Shown one piece after another: positions 2,522 through 7,835 of a stretch of 20,156 nt of DNA. A program made the position numbers and the translations under genes. Below the pieces are notes generated by a model that saw nothing but the letters and a program-made list of their open reading frames with translations, searched no databases and had not been told where the DNA came from. The stretch is from the IMG/VR virus record IMGVR_UViG_3300021131_000067, positions 1-20,156 of that record. One strand, given 5' to 3'. Positions within the stretch are counted from its first letter, which is position 1, and each line of letters begins with the position of its first letter. Source of the DNA: a virus.

Positions 2522-3244
2522 TTAAGTCTTTTGTATAAATGCAAGTGCATAATATGGAGGCAAATTAGCATTTGTGCCACTTACACCAGTTGTGCTATTA
2601 GCTACAGTAACGCCTGTTGTTGCTGTGCTTGTTGGGGTTACTGTTTGTGTGTATGGTGTTCCACCATTAGACCCTGCTCTTACTAAAGCAGTTTGATAAT
2701 CATTGTAATTATGGAAGTGACCTGGGTCAGTTACTGTTGCCGTATGGGTATGGCTTACAACAATAGCATCAGCAGAACCACCGACTGTACCAACTGCATA
2801 AGTAGAACCAGCGCCTAAAATAAATGAATTTCTAAGGTCTGGTGTGCCATTTGAGCCATTACACAATACCCAACCACTAGGAATTGAGCCTAATGAGCCT
2901 GACCATATTGCAATTAGTCCACTTGGCACTGTATTTGATACTGTTGGTGCTGTCTGCAAGATGCCATAAAGATTATCATAAGTCTGAATCACATTACCAT
3001 TGCTATCGCACAATACAAATTTATAACTATAGCCATACGTTACCCAAATCTCTGTAGCAGGTCTACCATCGACTCCCAAGACAATTGGATTTGCATTGGC
3101 TACATTACCGGCATTATCAGAATAGGTGGCTAAAGGAGTGCTAGAACCTGCTTGATAGGTATATAACAAACCACTATTTAAAGGTAATCCTGTAGTGGTT
3201 AAGAATTGGAATCCGTTTCCAATCGGTGACAGTAAAACAGACAT
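2522..3244 (-). CDS. Short tail fibre/spike with head-binding and tail-collar domains
   Basis: The 240-residue protein has two recognisable parts. Residues 1-95 resemble the head-binding domain of P22-like tailspikes, with GLPLNSGLLYTYQAGSSTP, NPIVLGVDGRPATEIWV and a following Y-K-F-V-L-x-D-x-x-G-N. Residues 106-230 look like a phage tail collar domain: IPSGWVLCNG, then TPDLRNSFILGAG, then a C-terminal LPPYYALAFIQK. Two H-x-H motifs (His165/His167 and His176/His178) could bind metal, as in T4-type fibre tips. It occupies the position of the P22 tailspike (gp9), after the gp16-like gene, but lacks any enzymatic beta-helix. The likely role is host recognition at the tail. Confidence 0.75.
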   Translation of the reverse strand: MSVLLSPIGNGFQFLTTTGLPLNSGLLYTYQAGSSTPLATYSDNAGNVANANPIVLGVDGRPATEIWVTYGYSYKFVLCDSNGNVIQTYDNLYGILQTAPTVSNTVPSGLIAIWSGSLGSIPSGWVLCNGSNGTPDLRNSFILGAGSTYAVGTVGGSADAIVVSHTHTATVTDPGHFHNYNDYQTALVRAGSNGGTPYTQTVTPTSTATTGVTVANSTTGVSGTNANLPPYYALAFIQKT

Positions 3245-5604
3245 TATTTCTCCTCAATTAATCCAGAATGTGGATGCGTTGTTTCTTGTGCGAATTTATT
3301 GCTCTTGTATTTAGAATACAGACCTTTTCCTACATTGACCACAGGAACAGATAATCCACCTGTTTTTACGGCCAAAGCACCCTCTCCAGACATCTTTAAT
3401 CCTTCTTTAAGTAAATCGCCTAAATAAGCAGAATAACTGTTGGAGAAATTAAATACATTCTCTGTTGGTTTTGCAACTTTTGAAGATAAAATACCTAAAT
3501 CTAACAAATCTTGTAATGACTCAGCATCATGCACATATTTTGCTTTATCAGCTTGTGATCTTAAATATTTGTTATACATATCTGGTTTTAATTGAGGCGT
3601 TGCAGTATTAGGCACGAGCGCATCTCTTGCATTCATAATATCGCCTGCCTTAACTGCTTTAATTGCGTTGGGAGAATCTTTTAATTCTGCCATCATTCTA
3701 CGGACTGCTTCAGGCGTTGCGTTAGTTACATATTTATCGTGAAATTTTGCTGCATTTAAAGCCGTAAGACCAGACTCAGCTTCTTCCATGGTTGAGGCTT
3801 CTTTTACGGCTGCTTTATAAGCAGGGTTATTTTTAATTACTTCCATTCTTTCTTTATACAATGCCCTTGCTTTATCTGCTAAAGGCTTTAAATGTTGCAT
3901 ATTTTCTGGGAATGGTAAATTTTCTAATTGTTCTCTAATAATATGAGCCGCAGCTCTTGCTGATCCACTTTGATTTGTTCGCATTTCATCAGCAAGATTT
4001 GATCTTAAATTTTCAAAATCATCAAATGTCATTTGACCATTTTTTATTAATCCATCAATGTCTTTTTTAATTGTTCCTAATTTATCTTCATAGACATTGG
4101 TTTTTAATTTTTTTGCTAAAGCATTATTAATGTTGTCGTTTAATTGAGCTACATCAATTGGTAATTGACCGCCATTAGCATTTTCTAAATCCTTGTATGC
4201 AGCTTTAATTGCATTTTGACGCAATAAATCTTTTTCTAATAATCCATTAATTTGCAATTGACCAATATTTTCTTTGGTTAATTCACCAATATCGCCAGCG
4301 TGTCTATCCAAAGCTCGTTCAAAACTTTCTTGAAATTGCATTGGTTGACTACTAAATTTTTTCTGAATATCTGGGTTGGTATCCCTTGCATTCCATTCGT
4401 TTGCATAAACTGATTTATCATTAATACGCTGACCTTTAGATAAATCAATTCCATGCTTTTCTTCAAGCGCTATAGTTTCCAAAGCAGGAAGATTAATTTT
4501 TTCCACAGGTGCGGATTTAATAATCTCTTGAGTTTCCGGCTTTAACTGAGGGAATATATTAGCAATTGATGATTGTTTATTTACATTGGCTGCACCTACC
4601 CCAGTCATGTCCAATGGTTCAATAGATACTGTAGGATTAACTGCTTTTTTTGCATTGGCAAATGATTCCTGCAAAGTGCCAAAACCTTCAGCTAATGGTG
4701 TTAATGCTTTACTCGTGGCAGAAATAACTGGTTTTGCCACTGCGCTTGCTGCGGTCATTACCGGCTTAGCTGATGGCCCTAATGGCAAATCATAAAAACC
4801 ATTTTTGATTATTTGACCTAATAACTCACCAGGTTCTGCTTGTGAAATTGCTTCATAGGTTTGAGATGGATTTAATAAAGCATTAATTGCCGTTTTGCCG
4901 GACTCAATTAATTTATTTTTTCCTTCTTGATGGAAACCTTGATCACCAACAATTGGCATTTCACCAACGCCATATTTCAACATATTGGCTAAAGTGGATT
5001 CTTTTTTCCAATCCTCTAAAGACATTGACTTTAAAGCATTAGTCACACCTTCAACGATTGGTTGTAAATTGCCACCACCAGCCTCCCTTGCTCGCTCTCC
5101 TTGTGCTACTAAATTAGGATTGTAAAAGCCTGGTTTCCATTCTTGTTGTTCTGGTTCTGGAGCATTTTCAATTCTATCTAATTGTTCTTCCGATGGGATT
5201 CTTGATAAATAAGAAGATGGGGTTTCAACTGCTTGAAAATTAGGATTAATGACTGCATGAACAGGATCCCTCTTCCCTAATGGTCGATGAATACCATATT
5301 GATTTAAAAAAGACTCCGGCACTTCTGTGCCAATATCTACTGCATCAGTGTGAAAATACTCTTTATCTGGGTAATCTTTAGGGTTAATAGGCATATAAAT
5401 GCCTTTTTCACCTTTTTGATGCCTATTAAATAATTCTTCTTGTTCTTTTCTTGTTCTTACCTTGCTAGTGACAGGAAGCTCTTTGCCATATTTTTCTTTA
5501 TAGACAATCTTTGCTTCTTCTAGTCTTTTTGCCAACTCTGGATCAGTTTCTGGCGCATCATCAAATTTAGGTATTCTAGAAAGAAAAGAATCATAGGCTC
5601 CCAT
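3244..5604 (-). CDS. Ejection protein (gp16-like) with N-terminal M15-type peptidase-like domain
   Basis: The 786-residue protein is in the P22 gp16 slot, the third of three consecutive ejection-protein genes, so it should travel inside the head and be injected with the DNA. Residues 24-125 resemble an M15 D,D-peptidase: TSKVRTRKEQEELF (46-59), FHTDAVDIG (84-92; His85, Asp90) and DPVHAVIN (113-120; His116). The His-to-Asp spacing is two residues shorter than in classical M15 enzymes, so activity is uncertain. A Pro/Glu-rich linker follows, then helical regions with Ala-rich amphipathic stretches (about 284-325) and charged coiled coils (about 420-640). SFLSRIP at 6-12 recurs as SYLSRIP at 131-137. 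The start overlaps the preceding stop (TAATG), and an SD-like GGAGAAT lies just upstream. Confidence 0.75.
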   Translation of the reverse strand: MGAYDSFLSRIPKFDDAPETDPELAKRLEEAKIVYKEKYGKELPVTSKVRTRKEQEELFNRHQKGEKGIYMPINPKDYPDKEYFHTDAVDIGTEVPESFLNQYGIHRPLGKRDPVHAVINPNFQAVETPSSYLSRIPSEEQLDRIENAPEPEQQEWKPGFYNPNLVAQGERAREAGGGNLQPIVEGVTNALKSMSLEDWKKESTLANMLKYGVGEMPIVGDQGFHQEGKNKLIESGKTAINALLNPSQTYEAISQAEPGELLGQIIKNGFYDLPLGPSAKPVMTAASAVAKPVISATSKALTPLAEGFGTLQESFANAKKAVNPTVSIEPLDMTGVGAANVNKQSSIANIFPQLKPETQEIIKSAPVEKINLPALETIALEEKHGIDLSKGQRINDKSVYANEWNARDTNPDIQKKFSSQPMQFQESFERALDRHAGDIGELTKENIGQLQINGLLEKDLLRQNAIKAAYKDLENANGGQLPIDVAQLNDNINNALAKKLKTNVYEDKLGTIKKDIDGLIKNGQMTFDDFENLRSNLADEMRTNQSGSARAAAHIIREQLENLPFPENMQHLKPLADKARALYKERMEVIKNNPAYKAAVKEASTMEEAESGLTALNAAKFHDKYVTNATPEAVRRMMAELKDSPNAIKAVKAGDIMNARDALVPNTATPQLKPDMYNKYLRSQADKAKYVHDAESLQDLLDLGILSSKVAKPTENVFNFSNSYSAYLGDLLKEGLKMSGEGALAVKTGGLSVPVVNVGKGLYSKYKSNKFAQETTHPHSGLIEEK

Positions 5605-7073
5605 TATTGGTATTCTCCACGCATTAATGCTTCAATATTATGAGCTTTTTCTGTAAATTTCTTAATATTCTCCTTTGACATTCCTTTAAACAATTTATTT
5701 ACTTCCAATTGTTTTTCAGCCTCTGATTTATTGGAATCGTGAATATTTTGCAAAATAAAAATATTAGGATCGTAATTGGATGCCCATGCGTTTTTAAATT
5801 GCGTATGATTGGCATTTGCGTTGTCAATACCACGCTTTGCCTCATACTTTTCATTTGCTTTTAAGAATGCTTTATAAGCAGTATTAGTGGCCTTAGATCG
5901 TTCAAGAATGGACTTTAAACCACCTTCTGTGATGTTTACATTAGGAGAAGCAGCAGCATTAGCATCTCTAGCTGCGTCAGTTCCAGCGCCCATAATTCTT
6001 GCTTGACGATTAGTAACATCAGCTAAAGACTTGGTTAAGATGTCCAAGTCCTCATTGCCTGCAATCCATTTACCACCTGATCTTAATAATCTTTTTGGTG
6101 CAGAGCCGGCAGTTGCAGATAATTTCTTTTCCGCAGTGTCGATTGTTTTATTTAATTCCTCAGTTTCTTGACCTAATGAACTGTATTGAGATTTTTCTTC
6201 TCTTGCTTGTTTAGCATTATCTCTTTGTTGTTCATTGAACAATGGGACACCATTCGCCATTCTGACAGGTGTTTCAGCAGTAATTAATGATGGTTTATTA
6301 GCACTTACTTGACCAGTAGGTTGAGTTGCTGGAGGTTGATTGCCTTGATTGGTCGAACCAAATGGAACATATTCATTAGTGGCTTTATTAAATGTGCCTG
6401 GCACTCCACCAGCGCTTACTACTTCAGATAATGGTCCTTTGTATTCTTGCGCTGCTTTGGCTGCTACTTGCGTTACTTGTGGTCCTGGCTTTGCATATCC
6501 CAAAGTTCCAATATAAGACTTTGCCAATTGTTGTGCATTAGGATCTGTTGGAAATTGATTGGCCCAATTCTGAACCTTCTCAATATAAACCTTTGGATCT
6601 TGCTCTCCGGATGCACTTAAGCCTGCCAAAACAGTTCCCAATGAACTTCTTTGAGTATCGGTTAACTTTGTTTTTGCTTCATTGGCTGAGGCTTGATTTG
6701 TCTTTAAATCAGTGTATTTCTTAATTGTTTCTGCGCCAGTATAGGGAGCCAAAGAATTGACAGAATGAGTGATTTTTTGTAAATCAATTTCACCATTTTG
6801 ATCTAAATAATTTGTTGGATCACTTGCCCAATTTTGTAAAATTTTGCGTTCATTATTTGCTTGAGTGGCTTTTTCTAAATCAATACCTTTAATTTGGGAT
6901 TCTATTTCGGCAGATTTAGAGCGAGATTGTTCACCAGAAATCATTGCCGGATACAGTTCTTTAATTTTACTTAATTCGTAAGATGATTTTTGAATATTGA
7001 GCATATCCGCTAAAGACATTCCCTTAGCCGGTTCTACTTTTATTGCGCTTGTGTCAGTTCTAAAATCAGCCAT
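5604..7073 (-). CDS. Ejection protein, gp20-like by position
   Basis: The 489-residue protein lies between gp7-like and gp16-like genes and is close to P22 gp20 in length (471 residues). It is mostly helical and charged. A Gln/Pro/Thr-rich linker (about 239-262) separates an N-terminal helical half from a C-terminal half. The C-terminal half has a coiled coil (290-320), a basic patch KRLLRSGGKW (327-336) and the motif MGAGTDAARDANAAASPN (361-378). No enzyme motif is seen. Assignment rests on order, size and composition rather than on a direct sequence match. The role would be an internal virion protein delivered into the cell during DNA injection. AAGGAT precedes the ATG. Confidence 0.65.
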   Translation of the reverse strand: MADFRTDTSAIKVEPAKGMSLADMLNIQKSSYELSKIKELYPAMISGEQSRSKSAEIESQIKGIDLEKATQANNERKILQNWASDPTNYLDQNGEIDLQKITHSVNSLAPYTGAETIKKYTDLKTNQASANEAKTKLTDTQRSSLGTVLAGLSASGEQDPKVYIEKVQNWANQFPTDPNAQQLAKSYIGTLGYAKPGPQVTQVAAKAAQEYKGPLSEVVSAGGVPGTFNKATNEYVPFGSTNQGNQPPATQPTGQVSANKPSLITAETPVRMANGVPLFNEQQRDNAKQAREEKSQYSSLGQETEELNKTIDTAEKKLSATAGSAPKRLLRSGGKWIAGNEDLDILTKSLADVTNRQARIMGAGTDAARDANAAASPNVNITEGGLKSILERSKATNTAYKAFLKANEKYEAKRGIDNANANHTQFKNAWASNYDPNIFILQNIHDSNKSEAEKQLEVNKLFKGMSKENIKKFTEKAHNIEALMRGEYQ

Positions 7074-7082
7074 AATTTATCC

Positions 7083-7835
7083 TTAAGGTACTGGGCCAAC
7101 AAAATTAGGGTTAGCCATGCCATTAATGTATTGCACTCCAGATTGGCCAAAACCACCTGGTTGACTTAATCCAGTTCCACCGCCTTGTCCAATACCAGAT
7201 AAATACGCATAATTGCCCACGTTACTTAATCCTCCGGCATAGGCATTAGCTTGACCTACTTGGCCGGCTGCTTGTGCTTGTCCGATGCCTTGCGTAAGTT
7301 GAGCCACATTAGTGCCTGTACCAAGCTGTGCATTGGCAGTACCAGCTGCACCTTGATAACCTATTCCAGCAATACCGGCTAATCGATTATAAATATTAGT
7401 TTGGTTTGCGCTGTAATTATTAAATGCGTTTTGATAAGCACTTTGAGCATAATTTTGCGTATAGTCTTGTAAACCTTTAAGTGCATTACCACCGACCATG
7501 CCACCTGTGGCATTATTGGCTGCGTTGGTTGCACCTTGCCCTTGTTGTAGCTGAAAAGCATAATTTGGTGCTAAATTGGCATTTAAATCTTGATTATTAA
7601 ATTGATTAGTTAAATAAGGAATATTTTGAGTTAATGCGTTTACGCCAGTTTGTCCTAATTGCGTATATGGTGCAAATTGCTGACTGGCTTGTTGGCCAGT
7701 CTGTAATAATTGATCTTGCGCTCTAGCATTGGCATCAGCTTGGGTTTGTGCAGCTTTTTGAGCGGCATTGCCTTGAATCACAGCACCTGCTAAAGATGCA
7801 CCCCCCATAATTACTGCCGCAGTTACCCATGTCAT
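7083..7835 (-). CDS. DNA transfer/ejection protein, gp7/p32-like
   Basis: The 250-residue protein begins with a hydrophobic Gly/Ala stretch (about residues 4-24) followed by an Ala/Gln-rich helix. It carries the pattern of P22 gp7-type DNA transfer proteins: PYTQLGQTGVNALTQ (57-71), PNYAFQLQQGQGATNAANN (90-108) and GGNALKGLQDYTQNYAQ (115-131), then a Gly/Gln/Ala-rich tail. P22 gp7 has 229 residues, a similar size. The hydrophobic start fits a protein that inserts into the host envelope during ejection. The ATG overlaps the stop of the cupin-like gene (ATGA), and AAGGAG lies in that gene's last codons. Confidence 0.78.
   Translation of the reverse strand: MTWVTAAVIMGGASLAGAVIQGNAAQKAAQTQADANARAQDQLLQTGQQASQQFAPYTQLGQTGVNALTQNIPYLTNQFNNQDLNANLAPNYAFQLQQGQGATNAANNATGGMVGGNALKGLQDYTQNYAQSAYQNAFNNYSANQTNIYNRLAGIAGIGYQGAAGTANAQLGTGTNVAQLTQGIGQAQAAGQVGQANAYAGGLSNVGNYAYLSGIGQGGGTGLSQPGGFGQSGVQYINGMANPNFVGPVP

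Follow-up and report, generated by a model that had tools for sequence, protein, structure and literature searches.

The gp16-position ejection protein (E3) of the virus examined here carries in its N-terminal segment two short matched motifs that, judged from sequence comparison, probably form a bivalent and lineage-specific code for docking E3 on the neighbouring ejection protein E2. The window, that is, the whole stretch of DNA analysed, comprises 20,156 nucleotides (positions 1 to 20,156 of IMG/VR virus record IMGVR_UViG_3300021131_000067). In this virus and its relatives the two copies match within each protein. They co-vary with E2 in its C-terminal half and with none of the remaining virion proteins that were tested, and the enzymes encoded between the copies are swapped. 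Such a code would involve direct binding of E3 to E2, two E2 subunits for each E3, and positioning of a hydrolase during assembly of the periplasmic tunnel. How the ejection proteins of P22-like phages recognise one another and how their ratio is set are poorly known, and homology between phages is often lost because these proteins diverge so fast. The motif pair and its matching receptor domain, found in well over 100 distinct environmental phages, would amount to a pairing rule readable from sequence, predicting which ejection proteins are compatible, where hydrolases are naturally swapped and which residues are suited to probing tunnel assembly.

The genes concerned lie on the minus strand of the window. 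E3 (3244..5604, 786 amino acids) was assigned from its open reading frame and from synteny with P22 genes 7-20-16. E2, the ejection protein at the gp20/gp15 position (5604..7073, 489 amino acids, from its open reading frame), shares one base with E3 in a stop/start overlap, which is also found between P22 genes 20 and 16 and in 104 of 183 relatives. The third member of the operon, E1 (7083..7835), is a gp7-like ejection protein matching phrog_598, DNA ejection, at 2.2e-22. The order gp7-like, E2, E3 corresponds to the P22 order 7-20-16, and the coat protein of the window is likewise of P22 type (Pfam 1.6e-35). Translation confirmed the two motifs that the preliminary description had placed around a peptidase-like segment: copy 1, SFLSRIP, at codons 6-12 (5569..5589), which is backed also by the family-wide pair statistics, and copy 2, SYLSRIP, at codons 131-137 (5194..5214), which is unchanged in the relative L005. 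In the AlphaFold2 (AF2) model of E3, motif 1 has a pLDDT of about 50 and motif 2 of about 63-72, values in keeping with segments that might become folded once bound. The remainder of the protein, the E3 body (amino acids 140-786, 3247..5187), recombines independently of the motif pair, as judged from comparisons with L001 and L005. The window body has no PHROG match; the body of L003, whose M15 domain is in common with the window E3, matches phrog_26400, 'DNA ejection protein', at 6.7e-40. The C-terminal half of E2 (amino acids 250-489, 5607..6326) is the putative receptor of both E3 motifs on the basis of co-variation and of its AF2 model, which is helical with a pLDDT of 80; fold searches of the PDB with this model gave no clear match, T7 gp15 included. 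At its other end, E2 starts with an MSLADMLNI-like motif (window 7073 to ~6960), which reads SLxDMLNIARGAQAYQ in many relatives and is constant across the E3 motif classes. This motif may serve a docking of its own, with the gp7-like protein or the portal as conceivable partners.

Within the window protein alone, the repeat is modestly improbable. The two copies are identical in 6 of 7 residues; their 9-mer pair score was reached by 156 of 20000 shuffles (~0.008), and some heptamer pair with six identities of seven arose in 42 of 5000 shuffles. There is no third copy in the window, the next-best 9-mer scoring 24 against 31. Relatives were collected through the conserved downstream collar gene, E3 then being read upstream of the collar, and 62 dereplicated proteins entered the main pair test; an out-of-sample scan with the E2 C-terminal half gave 107 new dereplicated E3 proteins. 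Two matched short N-terminal copies are the rule in 169 dereplicated relatives. The motif is hydrophobic-acidic and its sequence varies by phage (TLAELW, DELGQLILG, INAAVGDAF, SFLSRIP), and the copies within one protein match: TLAELWDS/TLADLWDK in L006, DELGELILG/DELGQLILG in L066, DINQFL/DINEFL in L010, and YSSAAIDDF/YSSESIDKF in L013. Each protein was scored by its best-matching pair of 9-mers, one taken from residues 1-40 and the other from residues 41-240. The mean of this pair score over the 62 dereplicated proteins was 24.84, compared with 20.75±0.47 when partners were permuted and with a maximum of 22.66 in 5000 permutations, so that the repeat, as the preliminary description had supposed, is nonrandom on wider comparison. 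The same holds inside single classes, with 35.97 against 27.35±0.89 in class A8 and 29.45 against 24.79±0.66 in class A9; the within-class permutation test, made without regular expressions, gives strong support in A8 and A9 and weak support in A7.

Class-appropriate pairs also occur in the environmental genomes ctn9Y15 (DEISALILG/DDISSLILG) and cta1H496 (DAVEQLF/DSIEQLF). Xanthomonas phage PBR31 has an A7-type E2 match, and LSDELLNDVP/LATDLLSEAP can be seen by eye in its E3, the automatic test having chosen another pair (weak support). The automatic pair test detected no motif pair in P22 gp16, Sf6 gp13 or Rhodoferax phage P26218. Searches with the E2 C-terminal half returned no relatives from GTDB genomes, and nothing among isolated phages matched that of the window. 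A literature search, mostly outside subscription titles, surfaced no report of a comparable paired motif. In phage DSL-LC05 (L225, from 23371) the E3 N-terminus bears a tandem NPFAQFA, the two copies 14 amino acids apart, and by eye its E2 C-terminus appears different; motifs in pairs may extend beyond the clade of the window.

The match between copies is one of protein and hardly of DNA. Identical residues use the same codon in 318 of 680 cases, where 290 are expected from the codon usage of each gene, and the 3' flanks of the copies are 0.314 identical against a background of 0.287, a slight excess only. Recent DNA duplication or gene conversion was rejected, since identical residues are encoded by nearly random codons and the flanks lie near background. 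The preliminary description had proposed that the enzyme was added ahead of the old N-terminus with duplication of a leader, the repeat being the scar of the insertion. The arrangement in the window, taken alone, would agree with this, but many relatives (L010, L043, L066, L184 and L196) lack any enzyme domain and still have two motifs, the very pattern which that description had named as contrary to a scar; the reading is thus refuted on its author's own terms. The near-random sharing of codons, and the fact that the motif differs between phages while its copies stay matched, also oppose it, and we consider it scarcely credible. The same domain-free pairs bear on another possibility, that the copies are paired protease sites which free the enzyme during or after ejection. 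A precedent exists in P22 gp7, whose N-terminal 20 residues are removed by a host protease (database record note). Pairs with nothing to release between them, and lineage-specific matched motifs that follow E2, are not what targets of a host protease would be expected to show, and this explanation is highly improbable.

The link to E2 was seen in several comparisons. How similar copy 1 of one phage is to copy 2 of another can be predicted from the resemblance of their E2 C-terminal halves (beta 0.21, Mantel p<0.001), and in the same regression the E2 N-terminal half, the E3 body and the collar give no prediction. Between the gp7-like E1 and the motif there is no co-variation (r=0.04). In a sliding-window analysis the signal fell within the final ~210-240 amino acids of E2, where r is 0.16-0.21 compared with 0.03-0.05 in the N-terminal half. 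Within class A8 beta is 0.63 for the E2 C-terminal half (p<0.001) and 0.01 for the body, and within A9 it is 0.47 (p<0.001); within A7 the fine-scale regression on the E2 C-terminal half is not significant (p 0.22). For the out-of-sample scan the prediction was fixed beforehand: in loci found by the E2 C-terminal half alone, the next gene should carry the motif of its class twice. The A7 regular expression, written in advance, found two matches in 72% of new E3 proteins of its class and in 0% off class. Those written in advance for A8 and A9 failed, misfitting examples of their own class, and the patterns were relaxed post hoc; with these relaxed patterns two class motifs were found in 29/29 (100%) of A7, 89% of A8 and 82% of A9, and in <=5% off class, among the 107 new E3 proteins. 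The regex-free tests stand apart from the post-hoc patterns, as they make no use of them.

Natural experiments among the relatives separate the motif pair from its surroundings. L005 shares with the window 99% of the last 150 E2 residues and identical motifs, and identity in the E3 body is no more than 45%; L001 has an E3 body 87% and an M15 domain 59% identical to those of the window, an E2 C-terminal half only 32% identical, and changed motifs. Together they constitute a double dissociation of the motif pair from the E3 body in the lineage of the window. L006 resembles the window in coat (95.7%) and scaffold (96.9%), and its portal agrees at 94.3% with the portal of L005, but the last 150 residues of the L006 E2 are 24% identical to those of the window and its motif pair belongs to another class. 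L018 and L019 have nearly the same portal (1.0), scaffold (0.98) and coat (0.99), unrelated E2 C-terminal halves, and both motif copies switched. These cases bear on the proposal, also made in the preliminary description, of an encapsidation or scaffold-binding signal, to which binding of the portal may be added; the T4 capsid targeting sequence and encapsulin cargo peptides would be analogues. Encapsidation signals are typically short amphipathic motifs in the disordered tails of internal proteins, a description which counts in favour of this proposal. However, both copies change completely while the head proteins remain 94-100% identical (window/L005/L006 and L018/L019), and it is the E2 C-terminal half that changes with them. 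In 20 genomes the motif follows the E2 C-terminal half (r 0.345, p 0.001) and correlates significantly with none of coat (r 0.10, p 0.08), scaffold (0.06, p 0.31) or portal (0.08, p 0.22). What survives of that interpretation is a nonrandom repeat, with which a short binding signal needed at both ends agrees well; a signal for scaffold or capsid is very improbable.

Since E2 and E3 are adjacent, some of the co-variation between E2 and the motif arises from joint recombination. Carried to its limit, this becomes a reading in which the 3' end of E2, the motifs and the middle recombine as one DNA block and the motif and the E2 C-terminal half never touch. The 1-base overlap of the two genes speaks for it, as do L184 and L196, between which a block running from the E2 C-terminal half to about amino acid 230 of E3 was exchanged as a unit. 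Linkage of this kind predicts an association with E2 that falls from copy 1 through the middle to copy 2, whereas the values observed are 0.594, 0.402 and 0.588, with 0.279 past copy 2. Copy 2, farther from E2 than the middle, tracks E2 better, by 0.186 (bootstrap 95% 0.093-0.270), a difference to be read with the fact that copy 2 was selected for matching copy 1 best, a choice that tends to raise the association of copy 2 with E2; the cross-test between copy 1 and copy 2, free of this selection, agrees with the tracking of E2. Middles and motifs also reassort, and L018 and L019 retain a homologous middle, and a stretch about 90% identical after copy 2, despite the switch of both motifs. Linkage as the whole explanation is accordingly rated unlikely. 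The very close match of the copies (r between copies 0.95) would also suit a homotypic zipper, in which the copies pair together or with those of neighbouring E3 subunits and E2 is a bystander. Co-variation with the E2 C-terminal half in proteins with unrelated middles, and the within-class regression, are not predicted by a zipper, and the distance between copies, which ranges from about 17 to 200 amino acids, is too variable to favour one; we hold it to be quite unlikely.

The two copies enclose a cassette slot in which enzymes are interchangeable or absent. It holds an M15 domain in the window, L001, L011, L030 and L364, an M23 domain in L006 (Pfam 2.8e-25), an SLT transglycosylase in L219 (1.3e-10) and L437 (1.8e-13), and a phrog_873/phrog_7182 endolysin-like (lysozyme-like) domain in L009 and L329. 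The middle of L002 and L417 is a domain without assignment, and in other E3 proteins it is linker only. Flanking of a domain by the copies is common and not universal: in SLT-first proteins (L020, L031, L064) and in those with an N-terminal helical domain (L052, L070) both copies come after the domain. Motif classes and enzymes reassort, with several enzymes per class and M15 in several classes. A lysozyme-like sequence (NNPGAL...KWAPPNENDT) seen by eye in the E3 of L329 is also present in the E2 of PBR31 (L466 3714-5456), possibly a hydrolase that moved between ejection proteins.

Between the copies of the window lies a domain of the M15/VanY fold (amino acids ~18-126, 5227..5553), with H85, D90 and H116 as candidate zinc ligands, delimited from alignment A10, AF2, Foldseek and VIA-align. 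The M15-like identity proposed in the preliminary description is well supported at the level of fold, and peptidase function is putative. The AF2 model of the domain has a pLDDT of 83, and the 19 best PDB matches in Foldseek are all M15 peptidases (VanY, LdcB, VanXY or Ply500). In VIA-align the best 20 rows, with Z of 5.7-7.9, consist of M15 enzymes and related peptidoglycan peptidases; as Z stays below 8, this is supportive and no proof of the M15 fold. The window copy has no match in a Pfam search, and the relatives L291 (6e-7) and L364 (1e-7) lie above the Pfam VanY cut-off. H85, D90, D113 and H116 are conserved in aligned relatives, the last two in the form D113-P-V-H116. The domain shares with VanY, LdcB and Ply500 the fold and a conserved candidate His/Asp/His site, but the window subfamily differs from canonical M15 in having H-x4-D for H-x6-D and D113 for the usual Glu; the canonical H-x6-D is present in relatives L266, L291, L364 and L247. 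Since the first metal-binding loop lacks two residues, the assignment reaches fold and not activity. The phage has a second M15 enzyme, a separate endolysin (window 1682-1251) with a canonical Peptidase_M15_3 domain (2.7e-18).

The docking code favoured here may be pictured as follows. A flexible N-terminal segment of E3 would carry two short linear docking motifs, both of which would bind E2 through its helical C-terminal half. Each phage lineage would have its own cognate version of motif and receptor, so that both copies must change with E2. The slot between them would exchange peptidoglycan hydrolases (M15 in the window), and a hydrolase tethered at both ends to E2 would cut the wall next to the E2 tunnel as it grows. 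The site of docking might be the head or the periplasm. In a more specific and rather doubtful form, the two motifs would each capture one gp15/gp20-like subunit, setting a 2:1 ratio (8:4 in T7) and letting enzyme cassettes be exchanged without disturbing assembly. Natural E2-E3 fusions were searched for and none was found.

Several known systems can be compared. In T7, whose core consists of octameric gp15 and tetrameric gp16 (PMC11784390), the transglycosylase is followed by the gp16-N 'molecular tape', which lends stability to gp15's C-terminal domain within the periplasmic tunnel (PMC8954989). What the two systems have in common, by inference in the case of E3, is an N-terminal segment of the gp16-position protein that lies beside a hydrolase domain and targets the gp15-position protein in its C-terminal half. 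The T7 tape is, however, one continuous stretch of 72 amino acids after the hydrolase, whereas E3 has two short matched lineage-specific motifs that usually flank it, and fold searches with the C-terminal half of E2 gave no match to gp15. The gp7-gp20-gp16 set of P22 and Sf6 resembles the window in gene order, P22-type coat and the 1-base overlap of genes 20/16; P22 gp16 is reported to be without an N-terminal hydrolase (PMC8954989), and P22 gp16 and Sf6 gp13 differ from E3 in their undetectable motif pair. The ejectosome of phage PhiM1 combines an octameric with a tetrameric ejection protein, either of which can bear hydrolase-like domains, and in this it is like the arrangement proposed here; the section of its account that was consulted describes no paired docking motif (PMC11440229).

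Two further observations concern the structural genes. In several relatives the P22-type coat gene is interrupted by an insertion of ~240-290 nucleotides near codon 41 or 82: L506 at about 1298-1618 (contig of L005), L496 (contig of L011), L498 (contig of L009) and L223 at about 3750-3968 (ctn9Y15). The inserts of L005, L011 and ctn9Y15 have core words in common, ACGACTAAGTGAGA ... GCGATAGTCTGAAC, which recall a small group I intron; no insert matched Rfam at gathering thresholds, nor did the one insert tested to E up to 1. The coat gene of the window is uninterrupted. Elsewhere in the window (11295-10639), an open reading frame of 218 amino acids overlaps the ends of both adjoining structural genes and looks by eye like a homing endonuclease of GIY-YIG/NUMOD type.
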